NCBI GenBank assembly: GCA_024742485.1
Contig: JANSYK010000003.1
Coordinates: forward strand, 992,001 to 1,056,000
Direction of reading: 5' to 3'
Length of the DNA: 64,000 nucleotides
Origin: Alphaproteobacteria bacterium
GTDB lineage: Bacteria > Pseudomonadota > Alphaproteobacteria > Rhizobiales > Rhizobiaceae
The translations under genes were made by a program, and so were the position numbers. The notes under the pieces are model-generated. The model worked only from the letters and a program-made list of their open reading frames with translations, was not told the DNA's origin and did not search any database. This document shows positions 3,747 through 18,055 of the stretch, one piece after another; positions within the stretch are counted from its first letter, which is position 1, and every line of letters starts with the position of its first letter.

Positions 3747-4651
3747 TTCGGCACTCTTTTTCCCAGGCCAAGACGCTCCCGCACTTCGCTTGGGCCAATC
3801 ACCCGTGCACCCATGGCTTCTATGATCGTGACCGCCCGTGTCACGAGTGCTTCATTCGTGGCCAGTTCCCCCTTGGCGAGCCAAAGATTGTCCTCCAGAC
3901 CGACGCGGACATTGCCGCCCGCCAACACGGCTGCCGCCACAAAGGGCATCTCGTTGCGCCCGAGTGCAAAAGCAGACCAATGCCAGGTCTCCGGGATGTT
4001 GTTGACCATCGCCATGAAGGTGTTGAGGTCGTCCGGTGCTCCCCAGGGGACACCCATGCACAGTTGAACAAGCGCCGGGCTTCGCAGCACACCCTCGGAA
4101 ACCAACTGTTTGGCCAGCCAGAGATGGCCGGTGTCAAAGGCCTCGATTTCCGGCTTTACCCCGAGTTCCGTCATCCGCGCGCCCATCGCGCGCAGCATTC
4201 CGGGTGTGTTTGTCATGACATAATCGGCTTCGGCAAAGTTCATCGTGCCGCAATCGAGTGTACAGATTTCAGGCAGGCATTCGGCAATGTGTTCGAGCCG
4301 TTCCTCAGCGCTTGCCATATCAGTACCAGCTTGCAATGGCAGCGGGGAGGTGGGATCGCCGAAGACCATATCACCGCCCATGCCTGCGGTCAGATTAAGC
4401 ACCATATCGACGTCCGCATCGCGAATGCGGTCAGTCACCTCGCGATACAGAGCGCGATCGCGGGCAGGCGCGCCGGTTTGCGGATCCCTGACGTGGCAGT
4501 GCACGATCGCTGCGCCCGCTTGAGCTGCGGCGATTGCACTGTTGGCGATTTGCTCCGGGTTGCGAGGAACGTGGGGGCTGCGATCCTGGGTGCTGCCCGA
4601 TCCGGTAATGGCACAGGTGACAAACACGTCATGATTGATTTCCAATGGCAT
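3743..4651 (-). CDS. Beta-keto acid cleavage enzyme (BKACE, DUF849), dehydrocarnitine-cleaving
   Basis: 302 residues from the ATG preceded by GGAGGAG with 8-nt spacing. An upstream in-frame ATG at 4705 would add 18 residues without a good ribosome site. The BKACE hallmarks are present: CAITGSG (13-19), the Zn2+-binding His-x-His in HCHVRDP (His51, His53) and the late VRVGLEDN segment carrying the Arg and metal-ligand Glu. These enzymes condense a beta-keto acid with acetyl-CoA to give acetoacetate and a new acyl-CoA. Placed between a CdhR-type regulator and carnitine dehydrogenase, this one is expected to convert 3-dehydrocarnitine to betainyl-CoA plus acetoacetate. It is the first gene of the leftward operon. 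Confidence 0.85.
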   Translation of the reverse strand: MPLEINHDVFVTCAITGSGSTQDRSPHVPRNPEQIANSAIAAAQAGAAIVHCHVRDPQTGAPARDRALYREVTDRIRDADVDMVLNLTAGMGGDMVFGDPTSPLPLQAGTDMASAEERLEHIAECLPEICTLDCGTMNFAEADYVMTNTPGMLRAMGARMTELGVKPEIEAFDTGHLWLAKQLVSEGVLRSPALVQLCMGVPWGAPDDLNTFMAMVNNIPETWHWSAFALGRNEMPFVAAAVLAGGNVRVGLEDNLWLAKGELATNEALVTRAVTIIEAMGARVIGPSEVRERLGLGKRVPK

Positions 4652-4724
4652 CGGTGTTGCTCCTCCGGTTTCCCAAAGCTTAGGCCGCTTGCCAATCGGT
4701 ATCATGCTGATTTAGCCTGTTTTC

Positions 4725-5678
4725 ATGCCAAATTGGAACAAAAGCGCTGGTAAGTGCCGCCGTATCGACATTCTGCTCTTCGATCGGTTCTCCAACCATT
4801 GCCTGGCAAACACGGTGGAACCGTTGCGCGCCGCCAACGAACTTGCGCCAGGCAATCTGTATAGATGGCGGTATTTGACGCTGGACGGAGCATCAGTGAC
4901 ATCATCCAGCGGTTTGCTGGTTGAGCCCGACGGCGCTTTGCGCGACGGATTGGGAGGTGAATTTCTCTTTGTGCTGCCAAGCTACGGATTTCGTCAATTG
5001 GCGACGCCGGTTTGCCTGACAGCGCTGCGTTCAGCTGCTACCCGTTACGCCGTTATGGCCGGCTTGGATACCGGTGGTTGGCTGTTGGCTGAGGCTGGTT
5101 TGCTGACCGGACGGCGAGCAACGGTCCACTGGCATGAATTGGACGGATTTGCCGAACGTTTCCCAGATGTTGAAGTGGTTCGCGAACGCTTCGTGATCGA
5201 CGCCGACCGCATTACCTGTGGCGGCGCGATGGCAGCCTTTGATCTGGTCAGCCGGCTCGTTGCCATCCAACATGGTGAAGCATTGCGGCTGGAGGTTGCT
5301 CTCATGTTCATGCATGAGGGTACGGTCGTGCAGGGCCGGGAATTGGCCGCGCCAAAGAGTGGAGCAGTGCAACGGGCAATTACACTGATGCGGGAAAATC
5401 TTGAGGAGCCGCTTTCTGTCGTCACGCTGGCCAAGCGGGTCGGTCAAACCCAGCGCCGCCTCGAACAGGGATTTCGCCGTGAACTCGGCGCGACGCCCCG
5501 CACGGTCTACCGGCGATTGCGCTTGTTGTCGGCGCGCAAGATGGTGGACGAAACCGATCTGCCTGTTGCCGAGATTGCCGTGCGCAGCGGATATGCAAAT
5601 CCCGCCGCCATGACACGCGCATTTTCCGGAGAGTTCGGTATGACACCGCGGGCAATCCGGTCGGGAACCGATCAATAA
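4725..5678 (+). CDS. cdhR: GlxA/AraC-family regulator, CdhR-like
   Basis: 317 residues. The N-terminal two thirds is a DJ-1/PfpI-like sensor domain and residues about 215-310 form a double helix-turn-helix AraC domain (SVVTLAKRVGQTQRRLEQGF; VAEIAVRSGYANPAAMTRAF). It is transcribed divergently from the BKACE-carnitine dehydrogenase operon across a gap of only 73 bp (4652-4724), so both promoters and any operator must sit there. CdhR, the activator of carnitine dehydrogenase genes in Pseudomonas, belongs to this subfamily, and the location here matches it. The Shine-Dalgarno is weak, so a slightly later start cannot be excluded. Confidence 0.82.
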   Translation: MPNWNKSAGKCRRIDILLFDRFSNHCLANTVEPLRAANELAPGNLYRWRYLTLDGASVTSSSGLLVEPDGALRDGLGGEFLFVLPSYGFRQLATPVCLTALRSAATRYAVMAGLDTGGWLLAEAGLLTGRRATVHWHELDGFAERFPDVEVVRERFVIDADRITCGGAMAAFDLVSRLVAIQHGEALRLEVALMFMHEGTVVQGRELAAPKSGAVQRAITLMRENLEEPLSVVTLAKRVGQTQRRLEQGFRRELGATPRTVYRRLRLLSARKMVDETDLPVAEIAVRSGYANPAAMTRAFSGEFGMTPRAIRSGTDQ

Positions 5679-5846
5679 GGACCGCCCTGCATAAAAGTGC
5701 CATGGATGGGCTCTGCTCCACAGGCTAACTGGGGTCAGGATCCCGAGCCCGGACACTATCCACAGCGCGTTTTTTTCCGACGTTGATCGCGAACCATCGT
5801 ACAGGCAGGGTGCCTACCAGTCCTCTTCTCTGGAGCCGCAAATCAC

Positions 5847-6779
5847 GTGAACCCCATTTCCCTCCTGTTCCCTGTTCTTGCCGTCGTCATTTCGGTCGTG
5901 GCCTATCTGACACCTGAACTCTTTGCGCCGTATCGTGGTGCCATCGTTCCCCTGTTGACCATCATCATGTTTGCCATGGGTTTGACGTTGAAACCGAAAG
6001 ATTTTCAACGGGTTCTAACGCGTCCGAAAGTCGTCGGCATTGGTGTCGCGCTACAATACTCCGTCATGCCGCTGGCGGCTTTTGCAATCGGTCACGCCAT
6101 GAACCTGCCGGTTGAACTGATCGCCGGACTGGTTTTGCTCGGCGCGAGCCCAGGCGGCACCGCATCGAATGTGATGTGCTACCTGGCGAAGGCGGATGTC
6201 GCTTTGTCGGTCAGCCTGACCATGGTGTCGACCCTTCTGGCGATTGTCATGACGCCGGCCCTGACGTGGCTTCTGGTGGGACAGTCCATTCCGGTCGATG
6301 CCTGGGGAATGCTCTGGAGCCTGGTGCGGATCGTGCTCATTCCAATCGTTCTGGGCATAGGGATCAACACGTTCTTCGGACGGTTTTTGAAACCGGTGAA
6401 GTTCGTATTGCCGGGCATCGCGACAGCCGCGATACTCTGCGCGATTGCCATCGTGGTTGCGCTCAACCAGGGCAATCTTGCATCGGCCGGTTTTGCGATC
6501 GTCGCGGCCGTGGTCCTTCACAATGGCTGCGGGCTCCTGTTCGGTTACTGGGTGCCGCGCCTCATCGGATATGACCGGATGATCTGCCGAACACTGGCAT
6601 TCGAAACCGGCATGCAGAACTCGGGTCTCAGCGTCGCGCTTGCACTCAACTATTTTTCCGCGTTGGCGGCTTTGCCTGGTGCCATATTCAGCATCTGGCA
6701 CAACCTGACCGGAGCCATATTGGCGAGCATATGGAGTTCAAAAGATTCCGGGCCGGTACCGGCAAAGGCCGGCGATTGA
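5847..6779 (+). CDS. Bile acid:sodium symporter (BASS) family transporter
   Basis: 310 residues with about nine to ten hydrophobic segments. It shows the SBF-family features LLGASPGGTASNVMCYLAKAD (near residues 96-116) and ETGMQNSGLSVALAL (near 252-266), which form the sodium sites in this fold. It starts at a GTG 11 nt after GGAG. The family exports or imports organic anions with Na+; members include bile-acid and pantothenate/2-keto acid carriers. It stands alone, 168 bp after the CdhR-like gene and convergent with the deacetylase gene. A link to carnitine catabolism is possible but not shown. Confidence 0.82.
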   Translation: MNPISLLFPVLAVVISVVAYLTPELFAPYRGAIVPLLTIIMFAMGLTLKPKDFQRVLTRPKVVGIGVALQYSVMPLAAFAIGHAMNLPVELIAGLVLLGASPGGTASNVMCYLAKADVALSVSLTMVSTLLAIVMTPALTWLLVGQSIPVDAWGMLWSLVRIVLIPIVLGIGINTFFGRFLKPVKFVLPGIATAAILCAIAIVVALNQGNLASAGFAIVAAVVLHNGCGLLFGYWVPRLIGYDRMICRTLAFETGMQNSGLSVALALNYFSALAALPGAIFSIWHNLTGAILASIWSSKDSGPVPAKAGD

Positions 6780-6819
6780 TCTGTCCATCGGTTCCGCACG
6801 AGGATCCAAGAATGGCGAC

Positions 6820-6850
6820 GGAATAATATGAATAAATTTCATATTATTCC
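6820..6850. terminator. AT-rich perfect hairpin between convergent genes
   Basis: A perfect 13-bp inverted repeat (GGAATAATATGAA, loop TAAAT, then the complement) lies between the convergent symporter (ends 6779) and deacetylase (ends 6906) genes. It probably ends transcription from both sides, although there is no clean U tract. Its AT content is much higher than the flanks, so a protein-binding palindrome is an alternative. Confidence 0.5.
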
Positions 6851-6905
6851 ATCGATCTGTTAATTTGAAACATCAGCCCTGTTTGATGTCGCATTCAGGC
6901 CTGTT

Positions 6906-7808
6906 TCAGATGAATTCCCCAGCCACGCGGTAAAGCCCTGCATGCCGTTGAGCCAAAGCCTCGATGTCCTTCGAATACCCACCACCAACAACACAGGCGA
7001 CCGGCAGTCCCATCTGCCGCGCGGTACCAATGACGAAACGGTCCCGTTCCCTCAGGCCATTATCAGTCAGTGCGAGGCGTCCCAACGTGTCGGCATGATG
7101 GGGGTCGACCCCTGCATTGAAAAAGACGAGATTCGCACCGTGTCGTTCGAGCACATTCGGCAGCGTTTGCCGCAATGCATCGAGATACGCCGCGTCGCCC
7201 GTTCCGTCGGGCAATCCGACATCCATATCCGAGGCACGCTTGCGGACGGGATAGTTCTTTTCGGCATGGATCGAAAACGTGAAGACGTCCGGGTTTGTCG
7301 AAAACACATCCGCTGTACCGTCACCCTGATGAACGTCACAATCGACAACCAGTGCACGCTCGATTTCGCCTGATGCCAGAAGAGCGTGGACGGCAACCCC
7401 GACATCATTGAAAACACAAAACCCGGCGCCCTGGTCGCGGCGCGCATGATGGCCGCCACCGGCGGTGTTGCAGGCAATGCCGTTGGCCAGCGCAATACGG
7501 GCTGCCAGCAATGTTCCGGCGGACGCACAGCGAGCGCGAAAGGCCACTGTTTCGCGTACCGGAAAGCCTATTTCCTTTTCAATATGGGCCGGAACTGTGC
7601 CGGACATGACCTGTTGCACATAGGCGCCATCATGAGCCCGTGCGATTGTGTCGGGTTCGAGCGGTTCGGGAACGTGGAACCCATCCGGTCCGGGAACCAA
7701 CTCTTCAGTGAGGATCTCCGCAAGTCGCCGGAACTTGCCGCCGGGAAAGCGTTTGCTTTTGGCAATTTCGATATTATAGCGCGGATGGTGAACAATCGGA
7801 AGCGACAT
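6906..7808 (-). CDS. Histone deacetylase-like (arginase/deacetylase fold) amidohydrolase
   Basis: 300 residues from the ATG giving MSLPIVHHP. Longer starts would run into the regulator gene upstream. The class II HDAC-like signature is complete: tandem His in GGGHHA (120-121), the Zn ligands Asp158 and His160 in DCDVHQGDGT, and Asp235 in NAGVDPHHADTLG. Bacterial members deacylate small molecules such as acetylpolyamines, or acetylated proteins. It follows the IclR gene by 100 bp in the same direction and may be cotranscribed with it. The true substrate cannot be read from the sequence. Confidence 0.82.
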   Translation of the reverse strand: MSLPIVHHPRYNIEIAKSKRFPGGKFRRLAEILTEELVPGPDGFHVPEPLEPDTIARAHDGAYVQQVMSGTVPAHIEKEIGFPVRETVAFRARCASAGTLLAARIALANGIACNTAGGGHHARRDQGAGFCVFNDVGVAVHALLASGEIERALVVDCDVHQGDGTADVFSTNPDVFTFSIHAEKNYPVRKRASDMDVGLPDGTGDAAYLDALRQTLPNVLERHGANLVFFNAGVDPHHADTLGRLALTDNGLRERDRFVIGTARQMGLPVACVVGGGYSKDIEALAQRHAGLYRVAGEFI

Positions 7809-7908
7809 GGCCGGGATATAGGGCATGATCGCATGTGATACAAAACCGATGAAGGTCGTGGCGCACCGCACCGTTGGGCTCGGCGCATCAGGCTCGGTCG
7901 GAGCAATG

Positions 7909-8670
7909 TCACAGTAATGCGACCACTTGATCCAGTGTCTTAAGCAGTGCGGTGCGGAGCCGGTCCTGTTTGCTGTCGAATCGATGTGATGGCACCGGTA
8001 TCGAAATCGCATAGATCAGACCGCTTGGATCGCGGAAGGCCACACCAACCGCGGAGATTCCGTCCGTATGCTCATTGACGTCGAGCGCAAGGCGATTGGT
8101 GCGAACGGCTTCAATTTCTCGAATGATTTCGGACAGCGGCCGCTTGGGATCAGCTGATTGCTTCAGCTCCCTGGCAATAAGGGCTGCCGCGATGTCATCG
8201 CTAAGCATGGCAAGGGTGGCCTTGCCATTTGCCGTGGTCGACAGCGGAAAGGTTTCGCCGACCGCTGACACCGTTCGCAAGCGGTGTGTTCCGACCACTT
8301 GATCCACGAAAACCATATGGTCCTGGCGATAGACCGCAAGATCGACCGTCTCACCGGTCTCCTTGGCAAGGGCCGAGAGGACAGGACGGATCATTTCGGC
8401 AATGTTGATTCGGCCTGCTTCGGCAAGGGACTGGATTTCCGGTCCGAGCCTGAATCCACCCTCAGCGGACGACACCATGACGAACCGTTCCGCCTGCAGG
8501 GCGTTGACGATGCGCTGTACCGTAGAACGGGGCAATCCGACCCGTTCAGCGATTTGACCGAGGCTCAGTCCCTTATGCTCGTTCTTCAGGGCGCGAAGAA
8601 TGTCCGCAGCTCGGGATATGACCTGAACGCCTTGATTCGATTGTTGTTTTTCAATGGTTTCGATGTTCAT
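7909..8670 (-). CDS. IclR-family transcriptional regulator
   Basis: 253 residues from the ATG at MNIETIEKQQ; an upstream TTG at 8712 would add 14 residues. The N-terminal winged helix-turn-helix (VISRAADILRAL; GLPRSTVQRIVNAL) precedes the IclR effector-binding GAF-like domain. It is divergent from the cyclase-cupin-SDR-ABC operon, and the 8671-8838 gap contains a good sigma70 promoter and a palindrome. It is therefore the likely local regulator of that operon. The effector is probably the imported substrate or an intermediate (inference). Confidence 0.85.
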   Translation of the reverse strand: MNIETIEKQQSNQGVQVISRAADILRALKNEHKGLSLGQIAERVGLPRSTVQRIVNALQAERFVMVSSAEGGFRLGPEIQSLAEAGRINIAEMIRPVLSALAKETGETVDLAVYRQDHMVFVDQVVGTHRLRTVSAVGETFPLSTTANGKATLAMLSDDIAAALIARELKQSADPKRPLSEIIREIEAVRTNRLALDVNEHTDGISAVGVAFRDPSGLIYAISIPVPSHRFDSKQDRLRTALLKTLDQVVALL

Positions 8671-8771
8671 TCCGGCGATCCAGGTTTCTTCCACAGCGGT
8701 ATTTTCAGTCAACGGATTCGTTCATTCGGACCCGTTCTAACACCACCTGTGTAATGTTGCACGAAATTCAG

Positions 8772-8812
8772 TTGACCACAATACGGTGCATATGTATCAT
8801 CTAGCAATACAT
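8772..8812 (+). promoter_or_regulatory. Predicted sigma70 promoter with overlapping inverted repeat
   Basis: TTGACC (8772-8777) and TATCAT (8795-8800) are exactly 17 nt apart, upstream of the cyclase operon. An inverted repeat ATGTAT-N9-ATACAT (8792-8812) covers the -10 box and start region, which is a suitable repressor position for the divergent IclR protein. The cyclase ATG is 26 bp downstream with its own GGAGG. Confidence 0.55.
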
Positions 8813-8838
8813 CAAAACTCTGCATTGGGAGGCAGTCC

Positions 8839-9678
8839 ATGACGGTGACAATCCGCGGTATCGAATTCCAGGACAATCTGGATAACGATATGGGCATCGA
8901 ATTTCATAATCTTTCGCACCGTTACGGATATCAGTGTCCGAACTGGCCCTATTTCCGCGACGTGCGGATTGAGCGCATGCATTACATGGCCAAGTCGGGC
9001 GTCCTCTCCCAGACGCTAACAACAACAATGCATGTCACGACGCACATCGATGCGCCGGCCCACGTGGTGCAGGGCACACCGTTTATCGATGAAGTGCCAC
9101 TTCCGCACTTCTTCGGATCGGGCCTTGTCGTCTCGGTGCCGAAGAAGAAGTGGGAATCGATTACGGCCGATGATCTGGAAGCGGCCTGCGGTCACGCGAT
9201 CCGCAAGGGTGATGTTCTGATCATCAATACGGGCTGGCACAAACAGTATGAGGACGGCGACTATTTTGCCTATTGCCCGGGGCTGGTGTCTTCAGCGGCT
9301 GAGTGGATGCTGGAGAAAGGCGTCAAGGTTGTCGGTCACGATACACAGGCCAATGACCACCCGCTGGCAACGGCAATCGGTCCGCACAGAAATGGGCCCT
9401 TGCTGCCGCATCTTCAGGAAGAATACCGTGAATGGTCCGGTGGCAATGACTGGGCAGACGATTTCTCCGAATGGGAGCCGGTGCACAATATCCTTTTCAA
9501 GAACGGTGTCCTTGGCATCGAAAATGTCGGCGGCGACCTGGATGCGGTGACCGGAAAACGCTGCACATTCGCGTTTTTCCCATGGAACTGGGATCGTGGC
9601 GATGGCTGCATCATCCGACTGGTGGCAATGATCGACCGGGGCCAGAAATATCGCATCGAGGCCGGTGAGGCTTTCTGA
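8839..9678 (+). CDS. Cyclase-family metal-dependent hydrolase (kynurenine formamidase fold)
   Basis: 279 residues; GGAGGCAGTCC precedes the ATG. The metal motif of the family is visible as HVTTHIDAPAH (His65, His69, Asp71, His75). Members hydrolyse N-formylkynurenine, isatin or related amides and lactones, and some act on uncharacterised catabolites. It is the first gene of an operon leading to an ABC importer and a BKACE, so it probably opens or deacylates the imported compound. The TGA overlaps the ATG of the cupin gene by one base. No kynureninase or other tryptophan genes are nearby, so a kynurenine role is not supported. Confidence 0.82.
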   Translation: MTVTIRGIEFQDNLDNDMGIEFHNLSHRYGYQCPNWPYFRDVRIERMHYMAKSGVLSQTLTTTMHVTTHIDAPAHVVQGTPFIDEVPLPHFFGSGLVVSVPKKKWESITADDLEAACGHAIRKGDVLIINTGWHKQYEDGDYFAYCPGLVSSAAEWMLEKGVKVVGHDTQANDHPLATAIGPHRNGPLLPHLQEEYREWSGGNDWADDFSEWEPVHNILFKNGVLGIENVGGDLDAVTGKRCTFAFFPWNWDRGDGCIIRLVAMIDRGQKYRIEAGEAF

Positions 9679-10040
9679 TGCACATCAAGCCCTTTTCCGA
9701 TGCCGAACCCTATTCGGCGCCGAACCACCACAACTGCACGTCACTGCGTCTGGCAGGATTTGCCGAGGACGGCCCGGGCAGCTTCTGGCTTGGCTGCTCG
9801 CATTTTCTTCCGGGCGGCGGGGCCGGTCCCGACGCCACGCCGCTGGAAAAGGTCTATCTCGTCCTTTCCGGTGAGTTGACGGTCATTGCGGGGGGCAAAA
9901 CTGAGGTCGCGCGGCCCATGGACACCGTCTTCATTCCCGCTGGCGAAGAGCGTGAGATACGCAATGACGGTAATGATGTCGTGACCATGGTTGTGGCTAT
10001 GCCGTATCCGCCCGGCGCGGCACCGGGAGGCAGCGCATGA
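9678..10040 (+). CDS. Cupin-domain protein
   Basis: 120 residues, a single small beta-barrel with a cupin-like second motif (ARPMDTVFIPAGEEREIRND). Stand-alone cupins of this size bind a metal and act as isomerases, dioxygenases or sensors. It overlaps the cyclase stop by one base and the SDR start by four bases, so it belongs to the same translational unit. The exact reaction is unknown. Confidence 0.78.
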   Translation: MHIKPFSDAEPYSAPNHHNCTSLRLAGFAEDGPGSFWLGCSHFLPGGGAGPDATPLEKVYLVLSGELTVIAGGKTEVARPMDTVFIPAGEEREIRNDGNDVVTMVVAMPYPPGAAPGGSA

Positions 10041-10834
10041 GCTTTTACAGTGATCCGTACAAATTGTTCGACATCAAGGGCAAGGTGGCCTTGGTGGCTG
10101 GTGCTTCCGGTGCGTTTGGCGCCGTCGCCGCCAAGACCTTTGCCGGTGCCGGTTGCCGGCTGGTCCTCGCAGCCGGAAACGCCGTTGCCCTCAAGGGCAT
10201 CGCGGATGAATGTCGCGCGCTCGGTGCAGAGGTTGCCACCTTGAACATGCGGCCCGATACCGAGCAGAGCTGCGATAGAATGGTCGAGGAAGCGACGTCA
10301 ACCTTTGGTCGTCTCGATATCCTCCTGGCGGCCTCGGGCATGAACAAGGTCGCCAGTATTGATGAAATGCATCCCGACGATTTCAATGCCGTGATGGATG
10401 CCAATGTGACTCAAAGCTGGCTGCTCGCACGGGCGTCAACATCTCGTATGAAAGAGCAGGGTGAGGGCGGCAAGGTGATCCTGATGTCCTCTGCGCGCGG
10501 TGAATTGGGGCATCCCAATGGTTACACGGCCTATTGCGCTTCAAAGGCTGCGATTAACGGGATCACCAAGGCGCTGGGTTGTGAACTGGGACCCACCGGT
10601 ATCACGGTCAACGCCATCGCGCCCACGGTCTTCCGATCACCGTTGACGGCTTGGATGTTCGAGGACACCGACGAGGCCGAGGCGGTTCGAGCGGGTTTCC
10701 TCAGTCGGGTGCCCAAGGGACGGCTCGGAGAACCAGAGGACCTCGCAGGACCGCTGCTCTTCCTGGCGTCGCACGCGTCCGATTTCTATACCGGGCACAT
10801 TCTTCACACCGACGGCGGTTATACGGCGGGATGA
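10037..10834 (+). CDS. Short-chain dehydrogenase/reductase
   Basis: 265 residues, classical SDR length. The cofactor motif reads GASGAFGAVA in place of the common GxxxGxG. The catalytic Ser is in MSSARGE and the YxxxK motif is YCASK in YTAYCASKAA. The C-terminal HTDGGYTAG is typical. It presumably oxidises a hydroxyl group of the pathway substrate with NAD(P). The start follows GGAGGCAGC and overlaps the cupin stop (ATGA). Confidence 0.87.
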   Translation: MSFYSDPYKLFDIKGKVALVAGASGAFGAVAAKTFAGAGCRLVLAAGNAVALKGIADECRALGAEVATLNMRPDTEQSCDRMVEEATSTFGRLDILLAASGMNKVASIDEMHPDDFNAVMDANVTQSWLLARASTSRMKEQGEGGKVILMSSARGELGHPNGYTAYCASKAAINGITKALGCELGPTGITVNAIAPTVFRSPLTAWMFEDTDEAEAVRAGFLSRVPKGRLGEPEDLAGPLLFLASHASDFYTGHILHTDGGYTAG

Positions 10835-10838
10835 TGCC

Positions 10839-11759
10839 ATGAGCGATCGACGCAACATATCAATCATCGGTGCCGGTCTGATGGGCCACGGCATTGCGAT
10901 TGTGTTCGCGCGCGCCGGTCACGCCGTCACCGTTCATGATCCGGATTCGCAGGCGCTCCAAACACTGAGGGACCGCGCCGCGGCCAGCCTGTCGGCATGG
11001 GGCGTCGACGGCGATGAACTGGCGCCCATTCTGGAGCGCATCGCACCTGCCGAGACGCTGGAAACCGGCGTATCGAACGCGGAAATTGTGATTGAGGCCG
11101 CCCCGGAAAACCTGCCGCTCAAACAGAAGATATTTGCACAGATGGAAGCAGCGGCGCCCGCCGACTGTCTTTTCGCATCAAACACGTCCGTCATTCCCAT
11201 AACGAACATCGTCGAAGGTCTGAAGACCCGGGGCCGCGCACTGGGAACTCACTGGTGGAACCCGCCGCACATGATTCCGCTGGTGGAAGTCATTCGGACG
11301 GAATGGACGAAGGACCACGCCATCGATGCCATGATGGACCTGCTTCTTGATGCCGGCAAAACGCCGGTTCGGGTGGAAAAGGATGTTCCGGGCTTCATTG
11401 GCAATCGCCTCCAGCATGCGCTGTGGCGCGAAGCAATAAGTCTTGTCGAAAACGGTGTTTGCGACGCGGCATCCGTGGATACCGTGATCAATGCGAGTTT
11501 TGGACGACGACTGGCGGTGTTGGGACCATTGGCAAATGCTGACCTGGTCGGAACGGACCTGACATTGGCAATTCACCAAAACGTGCTGTCAGATCTGGAG
11601 AGCAGTGGCGAACCGTCACCCTATCTTGAGCAGCTCATCGAAACCGGGCGGCTTGGAATGAAAACTGGCCACGGATTTTACGACTGGACACAGGAACAGG
11701 CGGAAGAAACGCGCAGCCGGGTTTCGGACCATCTGAGGAAGCTCGAAACCATACTTTAA
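10839..11759 (+). CDS. 3-hydroxyacyl-CoA dehydrogenase-family beta-hydroxy acid dehydrogenase
   Basis: 306 residues. The Rossmann motif is IIGAGLMGHG (9-18), the catalytic-His region is HWWNPPHMIPLVE, and a C-terminal helical domain ends in GMKTGHGFYDW. Single-domain members of this size include carnitine dehydrogenase and other beta-hydroxy acid dehydrogenases, as well as 3-hydroxybutyryl-CoA dehydrogenase. Because the same operon ends with a BKACE, the likely job is oxidation of a beta-hydroxy acid to the beta-keto acid that the BKACE then cleaves, as in the carnitine module at 2.3-4.7 kb. It has no fused thioesterase, unlike that paralogue. Confidence 0.84.
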   Translation: MSDRRNISIIGAGLMGHGIAIVFARAGHAVTVHDPDSQALQTLRDRAAASLSAWGVDGDELAPILERIAPAETLETGVSNAEIVIEAAPENLPLKQKIFAQMEAAAPADCLFASNTSVIPITNIVEGLKTRGRALGTHWWNPPHMIPLVEVIRTEWTKDHAIDAMMDLLLDAGKTPVRVEKDVPGFIGNRLQHALWREAISLVENGVCDAASVDTVINASFGRRLAVLGPLANADLVGTDLTLAIHQNVLSDLESSGEPSPYLEQLIETGRLGMKTGHGFYDWTQEQAEETRSRVSDHLRKLETIL

Positions 11760-11803
11760 TGGCGCACGTTGCGCCGAGATTTTGGCACTAAGGGAGGAAG
11801 ACC

Positions 11804-13081
11804 ATGACGATCAAGACCAAGGGATTGACCCGCCGGAGCGTGCTCAAGGGTGCCGCGGCATTTACAGCCGCGCCGGCCATATTGCACTACAGCCGCGCCT
11901 ATGCGCAAAACCCAGTCATCAAGGTGGGCCATGTCAGCCCACGCACGGGGCCATTGGCCGGTTTCGCCGAAGCCGATGACTATGTTCTGGCCGGCATCCG
12001 CGCGGCATTTGCCAATGGTCTGGAGAACAACGGCAAATCCTATTCCGTTGAAATCATCTCCAAGGATTCCCAATCCAACCCCAACCGCGCCGCAGAAGTT
12101 GCCGCGGACCTGTTGCTGGGTGATGAGGTTGACATCATTGTCGCAGCATCGACACCAGACACCGTGAACCCGGTCGCCGACCAGGCGGAAGTGAACGAGG
12201 TGCCATGCATCACCACCGATTGTCCCTGGCAGCCCTATTTCTTTGGCCGCAACGGCAACCCGGCCACCGGTTTTGAGTACACCTACCATTTCTTCTGGGG
12301 GCTTGAGGACGTGATTGCGGCGTTCCTCGACATGTGGGGCTCCAGCGGCGTTAAAAAATCCGTTGGCGGACTGTTTCCGAACGATGCGGATGGGAATGCA
12401 TGGGGTGATCCCGAACTTGGCTTTCCGAAGCCTCTGATGGAAGCCGGATACACTCTGGTCGACCCAGGTCGGTATCAGCCGTTGACCGATGATTTCTCAG
12501 CCCAGATATCCGCATTCAAGGAAGCCGGTTGCGAAATCGTCACCGGCAACATGATCCCGCCGGATTTCGCCAATTTCTGGTCCCAGGCAGCGCAGCAGGG
12601 CTTCAATCCAAAAATCGTGACCATCGGCAAGGCGCTGCTGTTTCCGTCGGTGATTGAATCGCTGGGTCCAAGGGGAGACGGGCTTTCCTCGGAGATCTGG
12701 TGGTCCCCTAACCATCCGTTCTCGTCAAGCTTGACCGACCAGTCGGCGCGCGCGCTTGCAGAAGGATACACCGAGGCGACACAACGGCCGTGGACTCAGC
12801 CAATCGGCTTTAAACATGCGCTCTTTGAAGTGACGGCCGATGTCATTCGGCGGGCAGCCGATCTGGATGACAATCTGGCAATCGTCGAGGCTATCCGCAC
12901 GACCGACATCAAGTCGATCGTCGGTCCGGTCAACTGGAATGTCGGTCCGGTCAAAAATGTCACCAAGACACCATTGGTTGCCGGACAATGGCAGGGTGGC
13001 GAAGGCAATCGCGATCTGGTGATCACTGCCAATGCAACCGCTCCGGAAATTCCGATTGGTGGCGAATTGTTGCTGCTGTAG
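11804..13081 (+). CDS. Branched-chain-type ABC transporter substrate-binding protein
   Basis: 425 residues. A twin-arginine signal lies at the N-terminus (TRRSVLKGAAAFTAAPA, cleavage near AYA-Q, residue about 36), so the protein is probably exported folded. The mature part is a type I periplasmic binding protein (IKVGHVSPRTGPLAGFAEAD). It follows a strong AAGGGAGGAAGACC ribosome site. With the ATPases and permeases downstream it forms a Liv-type importer. The ligand is unknown; the adjacent enzymes suggest a beta-hydroxylated or amide-containing organic acid rather than a branched-chain amino acid. Confidence 0.88.
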   Translation: MTIKTKGLTRRSVLKGAAAFTAAPAILHYSRAYAQNPVIKVGHVSPRTGPLAGFAEADDYVLAGIRAAFANGLENNGKSYSVEIISKDSQSNPNRAAEVAADLLLGDEVDIIVAASTPDTVNPVADQAEVNEVPCITTDCPWQPYFFGRNGNPATGFEYTYHFFWGLEDVIAAFLDMWGSSGVKKSVGGLFPNDADGNAWGDPELGFPKPLMEAGYTLVDPGRYQPLTDDFSAQISAFKEAGCEIVTGNMIPPDFANFWSQAAQQGFNPKIVTIGKALLFPSVIESLGPRGDGLSSEIWWSPNHPFSSSLTDQSARALAEGYTEATQRPWTQPIGFKHALFEVTADVIRRAADLDDNLAIVEAIRTTDIKSIVGPVNWNVGPVKNVTKTPLVAGQWQGGEGNRDLVITANATAPEIPIGGELLLL

Positions 13082-13094
13082 CAGCCCATCACAG

Positions 13095-13133
13095 GCCGGA
13101 CAGGCAACGCATGCAATCTGTTGCCTGTCCGGC
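13095..13133 (+). terminator. Intra-operon hairpin after the binding-protein gene
   Basis: A perfect 14-bp stem GCCGGACAGGCAAC / GTTGCCTGTCCGGC with an 11-nt loop starts 13 bp after the binding-protein stop. There is no U tract, so it more likely stabilises the upstream mRNA or causes partial termination, giving more binding protein than membrane components. Confidence 0.6.
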
Positions 13134-13216
13134 GTTGGTCACTCAATCAATCTCGATGTCAGTTTCGGCGACCATGAAACATTATGGGCGGTCGCAAACG
13201 ACACAAGGACCGTGCC

Positions 13217-13942
13217 TTGCCTCTGCTTGAATTGAAGAATCTGACAAAGTCCTACGGCGCAATCACGGTTGCCGATGACCTCAGCTATGAAGTGGCAGAG
13301 GGCGATGCGCTCGGCGTCATCGGTCCAAACGGGGCCGGAAAAACGTCGATGTTCAATCTGATCACCGGAACAGTCGCGGCGGCGTCGGGTGACGTCTATT
13401 TCAAGGACCAATGCATTACAGGCATGTCTGCGCCAGCGCGTTGCCGCGCCGGGATTTCCCGGTCTTTCCAGGTGCCGCAACCCTTCGGCGCCATGAGCGT
13501 TTTCGAAAACGTGCTTGTTGCTGCGACACAGGGTGCTGGCGAGTCAGGGCAGGCCGCGGATGATTTGTGCCTGGATGTTCTTGACCGAACCGGTCTTTTG
13601 AAGCGCGCCAATGTGGCAGCGGGTGGGCTGACACTGCTCGAACGCAAACGCCTGGAGTTGGCGCGCGCTCTCGGTGCCCGGCCATCCCTGTTGTTGCTGG
13701 ACGAGATTGCCGGTGGTCTGACCGAGCAGGAATGTCGCTCTCTGATCGAGACGATCAATGATGTGCGCGCATCCGGTGTGACCATCATATGGATCGAGCA
13801 CGTCGTGCACGCGCTGCTGGCGGTGGTCGACCGCCTGATTGTGATCGACTTCGGCAAGAAAATTGCCGAGGGCGAGCCCCAAACAATCATGGAGAGCAAA
13901 GCCGTGCAGGAAATCTATCTGGGGATCGAAGTCGATGCCTGA
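13217..13942 (+). CDS. ABC transporter ATP-binding protein (LivG-like)
   Basis: 241 residues from a TTG start placed 7 nt after AAGGA. An in-frame ATG at 13184 would add an unlikely basic leader. Walker A is GPNGAGKTSM, the signature region is LTLLERKRLELARAL (degenerate, as is normal for LivG proteins) and Walker B is LLLLDEIAGGL. It pairs with the LivF-like ATPase that follows, with an 8-bp overlap. The gap from the binding-protein gene (135 bp) holds the hairpin. Confidence 0.85.
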   Translation: MPLLELKNLTKSYGAITVADDLSYEVAEGDALGVIGPNGAGKTSMFNLITGTVAAASGDVYFKDQCITGMSAPARCRAGISRSFQVPQPFGAMSVFENVLVAATQGAGESGQAADDLCLDVLDRTGLLKRANVAAGGLTLLERKRLELARALGARPSLLLLDEIAGGLTEQECRSLIETINDVRASGVTIIWIEHVVHALLAVVDRLIVIDFGKKIAEGEPQTIMESKAVQEIYLGIEVDA

Positions 13943-14642
13943 CACTATCCTCGAAATCAACGGACTCGACAGTTTCTATGGCGATTTCCAGGCGCTTTAC
14001 GGCGTATCGATGCGCATCGAAAAAGGCGAAGTCATTGCGGTCATCGGAGCCAATGGCGCGGGCAAGACAACGCTTATGCGTTCGGTTACCGGGCTCTTGC
14101 AGAACAAGCCGGAGATGATCCACTATGGCGGCAAGCCGATTGGAAACCTGCGCGCTGACCAGATCGCCGCGGTCGGCATCGCCATGGTTCCCGAAGGCCG
14201 GCAACTCTTCCCGTCCCTATCGGTTGAAGAAAATCTGGTCATCGGCGGCCAGATCAAGCGAACTGGCCCATGGTCACTTTCATCGGTCTACGAGTTGTTC
14301 CCGGTGCTGAAAGAGCGCCGCAACCAGGCCTCAACCTCGCTTTCGGGCGGTCAGCAGCAGATGGTCGCCATCGGCAGGGCGCTGATGGCCAATCCCGACC
14401 TGCTTCTGTTTGATGAAATCAGCCTTGGGCTGGCACCCATCATCATCAAGACCATCTACGACGCGCTGCCGGGGATCATCGGCAGCGGCATGAGCGCGGT
14501 GGTGGTCGAGCAGGACATCGTCAAAGCCGTTGCCGTTTCAGATCGGGTTTACTGCCTGCAAGAGGGCCGGGTGTCGCTGGAAGGCCGATCTGGAGACGTT
14601 TCGCGCGACGCGATCAGCAAAGCTTATTTTGGGATCGGGTAA
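13935..14642 (+). CDS. ABC transporter ATP-binding protein (LivF-like)
   Basis: 235 residues from the ATG giving MPDTILEING; a longer frame extending into the upstream gene is an artefact. Walker A is GANGAGKTTL, the signature is LSGGQQQM and Walker B is LLLFDEISLGL. It is the second nucleotide-binding subunit of the importer. Its stop overlaps the next permease start (TAATG). Confidence 0.87.
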   Translation: MPDTILEINGLDSFYGDFQALYGVSMRIEKGEVIAVIGANGAGKTTLMRSVTGLLQNKPEMIHYGGKPIGNLRADQIAAVGIAMVPEGRQLFPSLSVEENLVIGGQIKRTGPWSLSSVYELFPVLKERRNQASTSLSGGQQQMVAIGRALMANPDLLLFDEISLGLAPIIIKTIYDALPGIIGSGMSAVVVEQDIVKAVAVSDRVYCLQEGRVSLEGRSGDVSRDAISKAYFGIG

Positions 14643-15508
14643 TGGATTGGGTCAACGCAATTGTTCAGGGAATTCTGCTGGGTGGCCTTTATGCGCTGTT
14701 TGCGGCGGGACTATCGCTCATTTTCGGGGTTATGCGACTGGTCAATATCGCCCATGGTGATCTGATTGTTCTGGCGGCGTTTCTGGGGCTGACCGTGACC
14801 ACGACACTGGGAATCAATCCCCTGTTCGCGATCGTGATCGTCGCGCCGCTGATGGGCCTGATCGGATATGGATTGCAGCGCGTTGTGCTCAATCGCACCC
14901 TCGGTGATGACATTCTTCCGCCGCTGCTGGTCACCTTTGGCCTGTCGGTGATCATTCAGAACGGGCTTCTGGAGATTTACAGTGCTGATCCGCAAAAAAT
15001 GAGCGCCGGCGCCATTGAAACGGCGAGCCTGAACCTGCCGGGAGGCCTGAATATCGGTGTGCTGCCCCTGTTGATGTTCATCACTGCCGTCGCCGTCATC
15101 GGATCGTTGCAGTGGATCTTCTATCGATCCGCATGGGGCAGGGCCTTTCGCGCCACGTCGGACAATCAGGATATTGCGCAACTGATGGGGTTGAACAAAA
15201 GCCACGTGTTCGGTCTGGCCATGGCGCTTGCATTGGTGGTCGTGGCGATTGCCGGAATTTTCCTCGGTGTGCGCACCAGTTTCGATCCGTCGGCCGGTCC
15301 CGGCAGGCTGATATTCGGCTTTGAGGCCGTGATCATCGGCGGCTTGGGCAATCTTTGGGGAACATTGATCGGCGGTATCATACTCGGCATCTGCCAGAAT
15401 ATCGGGGCGCAGATCAATCCGGGTTGGCAATTGCTGGCCGGTCATCTCGCTTTTCTTGTCATTCTTGCCGTCCGTCCGCGTGGACTGTTTCCGAGGATTG
15501 ACGGATGA
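14642..15508 (+). CDS. Branched-chain-type ABC permease (LivH-like)
   Basis: 288 residues with about eight hydrophobic segments. The family start (LLGGLYALFAAGLSLIFGVM) and the late cytoplasmic EAA-like region (FGFEAVIIGGLGNLWGTLIGG) are recognisable. It is an inner-membrane subunit, overlapping the LivF-like gene by one base and the LivM-like gene by four. Confidence 0.88.
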   Translation: MDWVNAIVQGILLGGLYALFAAGLSLIFGVMRLVNIAHGDLIVLAAFLGLTVTTTLGINPLFAIVIVAPLMGLIGYGLQRVVLNRTLGDDILPPLLVTFGLSVIIQNGLLEIYSADPQKMSAGAIETASLNLPGGLNIGVLPLLMFITAVAVIGSLQWIFYRSAWGRAFRATSDNQDIAQLMGLNKSHVFGLAMALALVVVAIAGIFLGVRTSFDPSAGPGRLIFGFEAVIIGGLGNLWGTLIGGIILGICQNIGAQINPGWQLLAGHLAFLVILAVRPRGLFPRIDG

Positions 15509-16584
15509 GTGCTGCACCAAAACACACCGTCGCCCGCTTCTCGCCGGCAAGTCGCGCCGCATTCGTCATTGCTCTGCTGCTCTTGATCGGACTTGCATTG
15601 GCACCATGGTGGGCCGGTCGTGCCGATATGCGGCTGATGAGCGAACTGTTTCTTTATCTCGCCCTGGCTTGCTTGTGGAACCTTTTGGCCGGCTATGCCG
15701 GTCTTGTTTCCGTCGGCCAGCAAGCCTTTGTCGGTTTTGGGGGCTATTGCCTGTTTGCCGCGACAATTTTCCTTGGCGTGCCACCCCTTCTGGCCGTGCC
15801 CGCGGTTGGTGTTGCCGGTGTTCTGATCGCGATTCCGGTCGCTTTCCTGATTTTCCGACTGCGCGGGGCCTATTTCGCCATTGGCACCTGGGTCATTGCC
15901 GAGGTGTTTCGTCTGACAGCGGCTCAGGTTTCAGCTCTCGGGGGAGGGTCCGGCACAAGCCTTCCGGTCACCGTCGTCAAATCGATTGCCGCGAGCCGCT
16001 CCATGCGAGAGGCGGCCACCTACTGGATGGCGCTGGGCATTGCCGTGGCAGTGCTTGTCGTTGTGTGCCTGCTGCTGCGCTCGCGGCGCGGATTGGCCTT
16101 GACGGCAATCCGGGATAATGAGCTGGCTTCCCAAAGTCTCGGCATCGACATTTGGCGGGCAAAGTTCTTCGTTTACGTGATCACGGCAGGATTGACGGCC
16201 GCCGTCGGCGCCCTGATTTTCCTGCAGAAGCTGCGTATTTCGCCGGATGCCGCGTTCAGCGTCAACGACTGGACGGCTTTTGTCATCTTCATCGTCGTCA
16301 TCGGCGGTATCGGCACCATCGAAGGGCCGATCATCGGAACGATCGTCTTCTTCCTGTTGCGGGAAACCTTGGCGGATCTCGGTTCGCTCTACCTGATGAT
16401 TCTGGGCTTCGTCGCAATCATCATCATGCTTCGGGCGCCGAAGGGGATCTGGGGATATGTCCGGGAGCGGACGGGTCTCGATCTCTTCGCCTTGTCACGG
16501 CGCGTCGTCTTGCCATCAAACATGGGTCCGACCGACACGAACGGACCGTCAAAGGAGACCGATCGTGGCTCGCAAACAACGTAA
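15505..16584 (+). CDS. Branched-chain-type ABC permease (LivM-like)
   Basis: 359 residues with about nine to ten membrane segments and the LivM motif LWNLLAGYAGLVSVGQQAF (residues about 53-71). A hydrophilic C-terminal tail of about 35 residues follows the last membrane segment. The end overlaps the GTG start of the second BKACE by 20 bp, so transport and catabolism are encoded as one unit. Confidence 0.87.
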   Translation: MSAAPKHTVARFSPASRAAFVIALLLLIGLALAPWWAGRADMRLMSELFLYLALACLWNLLAGYAGLVSVGQQAFVGFGGYCLFAATIFLGVPPLLAVPAVGVAGVLIAIPVAFLIFRLRGAYFAIGTWVIAEVFRLTAAQVSALGGGSGTSLPVTVVKSIAASRSMREAATYWMALGIAVAVLVVVCLLLRSRRGLALTAIRDNELASQSLGIDIWRAKFFVYVITAGLTAAVGALIFLQKLRISPDAAFSVNDWTAFVIFIVVIGGIGTIEGPIIGTIVFFLLRETLADLGSLYLMILGFVAIIIMLRAPKGIWGYVRERTGLDLFALSRRVVLPSNMGPTDTNGPSKETDRGSQTT

Positions 16585-17503
16585 AACCATCATCACATGC
16601 GCGATAACAGGCGCCATTCACACGCCGACCATGTCGGATGCCTTGCCCTATCGGCCCGAGGATATCGCGGACCAGGCCGTGGCCGCCGCCGAAGCCGGCG
16701 CTTCAGTCCTGCATTTACATGCGCGCAATCCGGCTGACGGATCGGTGTCCATCGACCCGGATCATTTCAAGCGTTTCTTGCCGGTCATCAAACAGGCGAC
16801 AGGTGCCGTGATCAACATTTCGACCGGCGGCAGTCTTCTCAACACGATGGAAGAGAGGATTGCTCCTGCCAAAATGGCGTCGCCCGAAATGTGTTCCCTC
16901 AATATGGGATCGATGAATTTTTCGATGCATCCGCTGGCCGACCGCTACAGTGAATGGAAATTCGATTGGGAAGAGGCCTATCTGCGCAATTCGGACGGCT
17001 ATATCTTCCGTAACACATTCGCCGATATCGGGTACGTTGCCAAACAATTGGGAGAAGGGCACGGCGTCAAATTCGAGCATGAATGCTATGATGTCGGACA
17101 CCTCTACAATCTGAAATTCTGCATGGACAGCGGCATGTTCAAACCGCCGGTCTTCATCCAGTTCATCTTTGGAATCCTCGGAGGCATTGGGCCCGATATC
17201 GACAATCTGATCTTCATGAAGCGCACGGCAGACCGGCTGTTCGGCGATGATTACCAGTGGTCGGTGCTGGGTGCCGGCGGCGCGCAGATGAGCTTTGCGA
17301 CCACGGCCACACAACTCGGCGGCAATGTGCGCGTCGGACTGGAGGACAGTCTGATGATCGCCCGTGGGAAACTGGCCAAGTCGAACGCAGAACAGGTCAG
17401 CAAGGTCCGCCTGATTGTCGAGGAACTGGGTTGTGAGATCGCTACACCGGATGAGGCCCGTGAAATGCTGGATCTGAAAGGAGGCGACCGCGTCAATTTC
17501 TGA
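16565..17503 (+). CDS. Beta-keto acid cleavage enzyme (BKACE, DUF849), second paralogue
   Basis: 312 residues from a GTG start 8 nt after AAGGAG; an ATG at 16457 lies inside the permease gene and is rejected. Family residues are visible: CAITGAI (12-18), His50-x-His52 in LHLHARNP (Zn ligands) and VRVGLEDS near residue 258. It differs clearly from the carnitine-linked BKACE at 3743-4651, for example in a bulky aromatic stretch around NSDGYIFRNTFADIGYV, so it should have another substrate. Together with the 3-hydroxyacyl-CoA dehydrogenase-family protein it would turn a beta-hydroxy acid into acetoacetate and an acyl-CoA. The substrate is unknown. Confidence 0.86.
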   Translation: MARKQRKTIITCAITGAIHTPTMSDALPYRPEDIADQAVAAAEAGASVLHLHARNPADGSVSIDPDHFKRFLPVIKQATGAVINISTGGSLLNTMEERIAPAKMASPEMCSLNMGSMNFSMHPLADRYSEWKFDWEEAYLRNSDGYIFRNTFADIGYVAKQLGEGHGVKFEHECYDVGHLYNLKFCMDSGMFKPPVFIQFIFGILGGIGPDIDNLIFMKRTADRLFGDDYQWSVLGAGGAQMSFATTATQLGGNVRVGLEDSLMIARGKLAKSNAEQVSKVRLIVEELGCEIATPDEAREMLDLKGGDRVNF

Positions 17504-17584: not shown

Positions 17585-18055
17585 ATGGACATAAAAATCA
17601 GGGTCGATGATCTGCGCAGTCGAGCGGTTGCTGACCTTCTGAACGCACATCTGGCGACGATGCGGGCGCAATCGCCGCCCGAAAGCGCCCATGCCCTTGA
17701 TCTTGAACAGCTCCGGGTGCCAGACGTTACGTTCTGGACCGCCTGGCTGGGCCGGGAATTGATTGGTATGGGAGCGCTCAAGGAACTCAACCCTCAGCAT
17801 GGGGAGATCAAGTCCATGCACACGAGAAACACCGTTCGCCGGCGTGGAACAGGGCAAGCCATTCTCGACCATATATTGTCGGTGGCCCGATCGCGCGGAT
17901 ATCATCGGCTAAGCCTTGAGACCGGATCCATGGCGGCGTTTGCGCCAGCAAGGTCTCTTTACGGCCGAAACGGCTTTTCGATCTGCTCACCCTTTGCGGA
18001 TTATCGCGAGGATCCCAACAGCGTCTTCATGACCAGATCATTGGATGTTGGTTAG
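17585..18055 (+). CDS. GNAT-family N-acetyltransferase
   Basis: 156 residues. The acetyl-CoA binding loop is RRRGTGQAIL within VRRRGTGQAILDHIL, followed by LSLETGSMAAFAPARSLYGRNGF, the usual YjdJ/ElaA-like C-terminal half. The substrate is unknown. The Shine-Dalgarno is poor and the start sits next to a hairpin, so expression may depend on readthrough from the upstream operon. The stop is 2 bp from that of the convergent GMC oxidoreductase. Confidence 0.8.
   Translation: MDIKIRVDDLRSRAVADLLNAHLATMRAQSPPESAHALDLEQLRVPDVTFWTAWLGRELIGMGALKELNPQHGEIKSMHTRNTVRRRGTGQAILDHILSVARSRGYHRLSLETGSMAAFAPARSLYGRNGFSICSPFADYREDPNSVFMTRSLDVG

Follow-up and report, generated by a model that had tools for sequence, protein, structure and literature searches.

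We found that a rhizobial operon very probably serves the uptake and reductive dearomatization of phloroglucinol, or of a compound that yields it. The operon lies in a 64,000-nucleotide stretch of a Rhizobiaceae genome (GCA_024742485.1, contig JANSYK010000003.1, positions 992,001 to 1,056,000; hereafter, the window), taken from an assembly of 6.87 Mb in 161 contigs. Pfam and NCBIfam searches of the window's open reading frames (ORFs) identified ten co-directional genes on the + strand (8839-17503). These genes bring together all four enzyme families of the reductive phloroglucinol pathway: a cyclase-family hydrolase (PF04199), a short-chain dehydrogenase/reductase (SDR), a 3-hydroxyacyl-CoA-dehydrogenase-family protein (HADH; 3HCDH), and a beta-keto acid cleavage enzyme (BKACE). 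The other genes encode a small cupin and a Liv-type ATP-binding cassette (ABC) importer. Phloroglucinol is 1,3,5-trihydroxybenzene, a ring compound from plant polyphenols.

The genes named in a sequence-only reading of the same stretch are all there, on the + strand and at the positions given, and the cyclase-cupin-SDR-HADH-ABC-BKACE cluster that it described stands, although it counted nine genes rather than ten. We also agree that this is a catabolic operon with its own importer and a substrate other than carnitine, and that its reactions run from a beta-hydroxy acid through a beta-keto acid to acetoacetate plus an acyl-CoA. That reading further held that no described pathway has this gene set, and here we differ: the combination of cyclase, SDR, HADH and BKACE was characterized biochemically for phloroglucinol in 2023, with rhizobia among the predicted carriers (PMC10470551). 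A characterized cluster of known substrate, which the reading had said would overturn it, thus exists as far as the four enzymes are concerned; it does not extend to the importer and the cupin. As a result, an "unknown pathway" is replaced by a testable substrate.

A probable reductive phloroglucinol pathway

The pathway worked out in Clostridium scatologenes, and reconstituted in vitro, comprises phloroglucinol reductase (PGR), dihydrophloroglucinol cyclohydrolase (DPGC), 3-hydroxy-5-oxohexanoate dehydrogenase (TfD) and triacetate acetoacetate-lyase (TAL) (PMC10470551). In that species, phloroglucinol is reduced by an SDR that depends on NADPH, after which a cyclase-family Mn enzyme opens the ring. 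An HADH-family enzyme then produces triacetate, which a BKACE converts, together with acetyl-CoA, to acetoacetate and acetoacetyl-CoA. The authors had also predicted the cluster for Mesorhizobium and Bradyrhizobium. Our comparison with the C. scatologenes proteins was made through the residue numbers given in PMC10470551 only, as this species is not among the loci that we fetched.

For the window operon, the reactions, the substrate and the regulation are predictions from sequence. The Liv-type ABC importer would take up phloroglucinol or a close precursor, and the SDR would reduce the keto tautomer, yielding dihydrophloroglucinol. Retro-Claisen hydrolysis by the cyclase-family enzyme, which requires Mn in C. 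scatologenes, would then open the ring and give 3-hydroxy-5-oxohexanoate, which the HADH-family dehydrogenase would oxidize to 3,5-dioxohexanoate (triacetate). With acetyl-CoA, the BKACE would cleave triacetate to acetoacetate and acetoacetyl-CoA. Finally, an acetoacetyl-CoA synthetase, whose gene lies outside the operon at another place in the genome, would activate acetoacetate, and thiolysis would follow. Two matches in this genome exceed the TIGR01217 cutoff for acetoacetyl-CoA synthetase (best, 1031.6 bits), and we found no pcaJ/scoB-type CoA-transferase in it at E<=1e-20 (controls matched in 5/14); acetoacetate is therefore probably activated with ATP.

The first gene of the operon (8839..9678, +; PF04199, 116 bits) encodes the cyclase, a predicted DPGC. 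In our alignment, Trp36 and Tyr38 of this protein fall on Trp20 and Tyr22 of DPGC, and among rows of at least 250 residues the Trp is present in 96/96 and the Tyr in 95/96; in the Clostridium homologues examined, the pair stands at exactly positions 20 and 22. The Trp/Tyr pair sets DPGC apart from isatin hydrolase; the bond that DPGC breaks is a C-C bond in a carbocyclic 1,3-diketone (PMC10470551). The window cyclase is 37% identical in the alignment (34% by tblastn) to the protein of the Acetoanaerobium noterae cluster. It also has equivalents of H49, H53, D55 and H59 of locus L010, which are presumably the metal ligands of the cyclase family.

The sequence-only reading had instead proposed an amide- or lactone-containing beta-hydroxy acid, opened by the cyclase, oxidized, and cleaved by the BKACE. 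Amide hydrolases do occur in the cyclase family: the weak PDB matches of the window cyclase include kynurenine formamidase, and isatin hydrolase is the closest characterized relative cited for the C. scatologenes DPGC (PMC10470551). However, the window cyclase scores 45.2 bits on TIGR03035 (kynurenine formamidase/arylformamidase; cutoff, 223.05), and its substrate residues are those of DPGC, not of isatin hydrolase. The SDR, moreover, would have no role in such a route. Because the cyclase carries the DPGC Trp/Tyr pair and the SDR belongs to the PGR clade, as described below, we consider an amide or lactone substrate highly improbable.

The SDR (10037..10834, +; PF13561, 159 bits) is predicted to be the PGR on the basis of its best PDB match, its place in a tree, and a motif. 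The best PDB match is 5g4k/5g4l (176 bits; next protein, 143), which we take to be the PGR structure from Clostridium sp. ATCC BAA-442. A tree of 63 SDRs places the window SDR within a 39-row clade that holds 5g4k (SH-aLRT 99), and the 14 own-genome paralogues tested, of 52 found, fall outside it; like our BKACE tree, this is a quick tree with SH-aLRT support only, and several paralogue rows are long branches. The clade of the window SDR neighbors that of the characterized Clostridium PGR. The window SDR and 5g4k have the motif PTVFRSxLTxWMF in common, and the more general loop PTVFR[ST]xxTxWM[FYW] occurs in 19/19 window-type and 20/20 PGR-clade sequences, in 0/14 paralogues, and in 0/10 cluster SDRs of an alternative type. 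A solved PGR structure is also mentioned in PMC10470551.

The HADH (10839..11759, +; PF02737/PF00725), a predicted 3-hydroxy-5-oxohexanoate dehydrogenase, carries Ser117, His138 and Asn189, which correspond in the alignment to residues that PMC10470551 names for TfD and are each conserved in 80/80 rows; in the Clostridium nigeriense dehydrogenase (L039), the residues are exactly S122, H143 and N194. A further hallmark of TfD is the loss of Lys56 and Asn221, with which 3-hydroxybutyryl-CoA dehydrogenase binds CoA. An SDR, a BKACE and transporters are also found in deoxyribonate catabolism (PMC6365646), and a comparable sugar-acid route could be imagined here, in which the BKACE would act on a 3-keto acid formed by the SDR or the HADH. 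However, that operon has a lactonase and two major facilitator superfamily transporters, the available text of PMC6365646 names no cyclase- or HADH-family gene in it, and the window SDR sits among the phloroglucinol reductases. We regard this route as improbable in the extreme.

Several observations count against phloroglucinol as the substrate. First, the NADPH motif TR(S/N) of PGR is not kept: the window SDR reads AGN in place of GR(N/S). The Arg of this motif is assigned to NADPH binding (PMC10470551), and its position is Gly in 21/21 window-type rows and Arg in 65/66 others. Second, 10 cluster SDRs in the tree are of another type that lacks the loop motif, and DPGC clusters therefore do not all use one reductase. 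Third, the TAL-specific Trp (Trp16 of the C. scatologenes TAL, CsTAL) is Ile in the window BKACE. Fourth, matches to the type of BKACE15, a Paracoccus denitrificans enzyme whose subfamily the window BKACE shares, occur at E<=1e-100 in 184/394 genomes of the family (at most five candidates scored per genome), as against 34/394 for DPGC, and the BKACE gene is missing from several otherwise well-kept operons (L106, L111, L173, L175, L177, L195). Fifth, the in-vitro pathway needed no cupin (PMC10470551). Lastly, a phloretin-hydrolase-type gene had no match in the window's own genome; the control matched nowhere either, so nothing follows from this.

The changed SDR cofactor motif, the Ile for Trp in the BKACE, and the extra cupin could also be accommodated by the same chemistry on a different ring, that is, a substituted or related cyclic 1,3-diketone or trihydroxybenzene (methylphloroglucinol, trihydroxybenzoate, or a reduced cyclohexanetrione). 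However, PTVFRSxLTxWMF in the SDR and the Trp/Tyr pair in the cyclase are common to the phloroglucinol enzymes, and the cupin is also present in clostridial clusters of the type that was characterized on phloroglucinol. We thus consider a different ring unlikely and retain phloroglucinol, or a compound that yields it, as the predicted substrate. The Gly-bearing, window-type SDRs come from alphaproteobacteria and mycobacteria; Martelella alba (L043), itself an alphaproteobacterium, has the other SDR type with Arg, and both its SDR and its BKACE fall with the A. noterae and enterobacterial proteins. The exchange for Gly is a clean natural variant at the cofactor site, and the reductase has a relative of known structure.

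Conservation of the cluster and its cupin

We found DPGC in the 34 family genomes noted above (E<=1e-60) and in 4/385 genomes of a class-wide draw (E<=1e-40). A reductive ring-opening route for the core of plant polyphenols would accordingly be encoded only patchily in this one rhizobial family. With identity limits applied, the 34 family loci (own included) contain the cupin in 33 cases, the SDR in 32, the HADH in 31, the binding protein in 29, the two ATPases in 27 and 26, the two permeases in 25 and 23, and the BKACE in 21. All ten genes are kept in 17/34 loci, which is 17/28 of those with at least 10 kb downstream; the other six have less than 10 kb there, five at contig ends and one by our choice of stretch. 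Because the gene arrangement is kept across the 34 family loci, it is not due to chance. A second set of 88 loci from plasmids and named genomes contained the SDR in 76, the HADH in 71, the cupin in 63 and the BKACE in 63, at a loose E<=1e-6 that may include paralogues. This set is non-random, consisting of the best 80 of at least 514 relatives to a clostridial query plus 8 plasmid loci, and it includes several contig ends. A. noterae encodes a DAPG/phloretin-hydrolase-like protein, which scores 22.1 bits, just below the PF18089 cutoff of 22.7; homologues occur in 3/88 of these loci, A. noterae included.

The small cupin (9678..10040, +; PF07883, 40.5 bits) is an accessory conserved in DPGC clusters. 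A close copy was found in 31/394 family genomes (E<=1e-35), and 31/31 of these carry DPGC; conversely, 31/34 DPGC genomes hold a close copy. The threshold of E<=1e-35 was chosen after viewing the list, which has a gap there between 2.0e-36 and 1.4e-20; at E<=1e-10, the cupin appears in 51/394 genomes, 18 of them without DPGC at 1e-60. We conclude that the cupin regularly forms part of the pathway. The main text of PMC10470551 makes no mention of a cupin; its co-occurrence with DPGC is an unexplained constant, even though the published pathway runs in vitro without it.

Canonical metal-binding histidines of cupins form an HxH motif. This motif is present in 0/73 cluster cupins, the window's included, with a His in the first-motif region of 1/73 and in the second-motif region of 10/73; the count concerns the canonical motif only, and other residues could bind metal. 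An alignment of 54 rows shows Y12, H17, G39, G47, Y60, G65, N96 and V106 to be invariant. The AlphaFold model (predicted local distance difference test [pLDDT] score, 93) has a TM1459-like fold, as in metal-dependent cupins. Our best guess, made with low confidence, is that the protein tautomerizes or isomerizes a cyclic diketone without the help of a metal.

These features can be joined in a broader proposal, which we offer tentatively and hold to be possible but doubtful: the operon may be a version of the pathway rebuilt for bacteria that, from their lineage, we assume to respire oxygen. Such a version would use NADH or another cofactor for ring reduction, a recruited BKACE subfamily, and a dedicated ABC importer, and the cupin, as a metal-free tautomerase or isomerase of a cyclic diketone, would be an overlooked fifth catalyst that aerobes as well as anaerobes require in vivo.

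Cleavage enzyme, importer and neighboring genes

The BKACE (16565..17503, +; PF05853, 348 bits) is a predicted triacetate acetoacetate-lyase. We place its start at GTG 16565, behind GGAGA, rather than at 16457, because the NCBIfam match begins only at residue 39 of the longer ORF. The protein exceeds the cutoff of NF053538 (3,5-dioxohexanoate:acetyl-CoA acetone transferase), with 523.6 bits against 430. We rejected this name as proof of the substrate: the BKACE subfamily is far commoner than DPGC, as the 184 and 34 family genomes indicate, and the name is therefore weak on this point. The enzyme belongs to the BKACE15-like subfamily, not to the clostridial TAL type, and the position of CsTAL Trp16 is Ile in 14/14 window-type BKACEs and Trp in 51/55 of the clostridial type. 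The alphaproteobacterial, window-type BKACEs from DPGC clusters form one clade (SH-aLRT 97), separate from that of BKACE15.

The BKACE is the least fixed member of the operon. Under the same scoring of at most five candidates per genome, 3/34 DPGC genomes are without a BKACE15-type gene at E<=1e-100. In L173, L192 and L195, we found no replacement cleavage enzyme, with neither FAH nor BKACE in the six stretches scanned. Rhizobium sp. ACO-34A (L009) has a fumarylacetoacetase-family gene (12534-13829) and no BKACE detected; it is possible that this gene provides an alternative cleavage of 3,5-dioxohexanoate. An amidohydrolase-2 gene lies 3' of the HADH gene in L104 (8936-9907) and L192 (7048-8013), with no BKACE detected nearby.

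Another BKACE of the window's own genome (L126) falls within the window-type clade and lies beside a different cyclase and a TRAP transporter. The second cyclase-plus-BKACE locus of this genome, L133 (G000:C102:906000-925900), encodes a TRAP DctPQM transporter, a distant cyclase, and a BKACE that shares 67% identity with the one in the operon (4158-8923), and within its 20 kb we detected no homologue of the SDR, HADH or cupin. As a guess, ring opening at L133 could yield triacetate directly from a pyrone or lactone, for instance triacetic acid lactone.

Variants of the cyclase were also seen. Two DPGC-like domains occur in a single long ORF (553-555 amino acids) at G748:C203:13923-15458 and G666:C603:7012-8532, with one stop noted inside one of the G748 matches, and L009 has two adjacent cyclase genes (9153-10780). 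We interpret the double domains and the gene pair as signs that the ring-opening enzyme was duplicated in tandem or fused.

The importer genes lie between those for the HADH and the BKACE. The periplasmic binding protein (11804..13081, +; Peripla_BP_6, PF13458, 140 bits) is of the Liv/aromatic type and Tat-signal-like, with TRRSVLK near its N terminus. It scores 22.4 bits on NF011933 (LivJ/LivK; cutoff, 477), and its structural model, which is of moderate quality (pLDDT 72), has mixed neighbors that include amino-acid and aromatic-acid binders. Two ATPases follow, one LivG-like (13184..13942, +; PF00005, PF12399) and one LivF-like (13935..14642, +; PF00005). The second most likely starts at ATG 13935 rather than TTG 13863; the PF00005 match begins at residue 47 of the longer ORF. 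The permeases are LivH-like (14642..15508, +) and LivM-like (15505..16584, +), both PF02653 (BPD_transp_2). A complete importer with 37-43% identity (binding protein, 38%) is present in the Bacillota cluster L030, and the window-type binding protein is also found in L042 and, in part, in L051. This suggests that the importer belongs to the pathway and is not a chance neighbor.

The operon genes overlap or sit at most 4 bp apart; the only wider gaps, of 44 and 102 bp, flank the binding-protein gene. A stable hairpin (13095..13133, +) lies between this gene and the first ATPase gene; the segment 13078-13140 has a minimum free energy of -31.9 kcal/mol (z -4.2 against shuffles) and no T-run after it, and the hairpin may serve as a transcript stabilizer. 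Upstream, an IclR-family gene (7909..8712, -; PF01614, 120 bits; PF09339) is divergent from the operon and likely encodes its local regulator, which would probably sense a pathway metabolite. Its best NCBIfam match is BhcR, at 115 bits and under the cutoff of 350. In L004, L005 and L007, too, an annotated IclR gene directly adjoins the cyclase gene. The divergent intergenic region (8713..8838) is, from its position only, the presumed promoter/operator.

A histone-deacetylase-family gene (6906-8012, -) lies on the far side of the regulator, and the end of the IclR ORF is overlapped by its ORF. Straight after the BKACE is a GNAT acetyltransferase gene (17585-18055, +); a GNAT gene is also found 3' of the operon in L108, and an ORF of similar size occupies that position in L106.

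Comparison with known systems

The window contains a second pathway of related logic. Its segment 1120-6779 encodes a carnitine operon (acyl-CoA dehydrogenase, carnitine 3-dehydrogenase, BKACE), a GbdR-like AraC regulator, and a PanS-like transporter. The carnitine operon (1120-4705) and the phloroglucinol operon both combine a hydroxy acid dehydrogenase with a BKACE whose family reaction gives acetoacetate. The two BKACEs are only 30% identical, in keeping with the earlier claim that the operon's enzyme is unlike the carnitine one (3743-4705), and the carnitine 3-dehydrogenase passes its own equivalog cutoff (757 versus 592 bits). In the same-genus loci L106, L108 and L109, a BKACE of 30-31% identity and an HADH-like gene likewise lie near the phloroglucinol operon.

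BKACE15 of P. denitrificans (PDB 8RIO/8RIP/9HNF) is reported to be active on 3,5-dioxohexanoate, and its physiological role is called unknown (PMC11961710). The window BKACE belongs to the same subfamily (365 bits), and Glu171 and Arg254, which are discussed in that paper, are Glu and Arg in the window enzyme too. However, the window BKACE lies in a separate clade. Across 12 short loci of BKACE15-like genes (L114-L125), we detected no cyclase or cupin; an HADH-like neighbor (34-38%) was present in 5/12 and an SDR-like one (27-33%) in 4/12. None of the 394 genomes yielded P. denitrificans BKACE15 itself, the best identity being 85%. We considered whether the window operon explains the role of BKACE15 and rejected this idea, given the separate clade and the lack of a cyclase or cupin in the 12 loci.

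Relative to the C. scatologenes cluster (PMC10470551), the window operon differs in several respects. It has a Liv-type ABC importer where the Clostridium cluster has a "major family transporter," its SDR has Gly in place of the cofactor Arg, and no thiolase, CoA-transferase or kinase is found among the annotated window neighbors. At the 2'-phosphate site, the window SDR reads AGN and the PGR 5g4k reads GRN. The BKACE is of another subfamily than the clostridial-type TAL and is 34% identical to the TAL-like protein of A. noterae. The two clusters nonetheless share the same four enzyme families, the cyclase substrate residues, and the Ser/His/Asn of the dehydrogenase. The pathway is thus a published one whose rhizobial presence had been predicted, and the interest of the window operon lies in its conserved cupin, the change at the cofactor site, and the importer.

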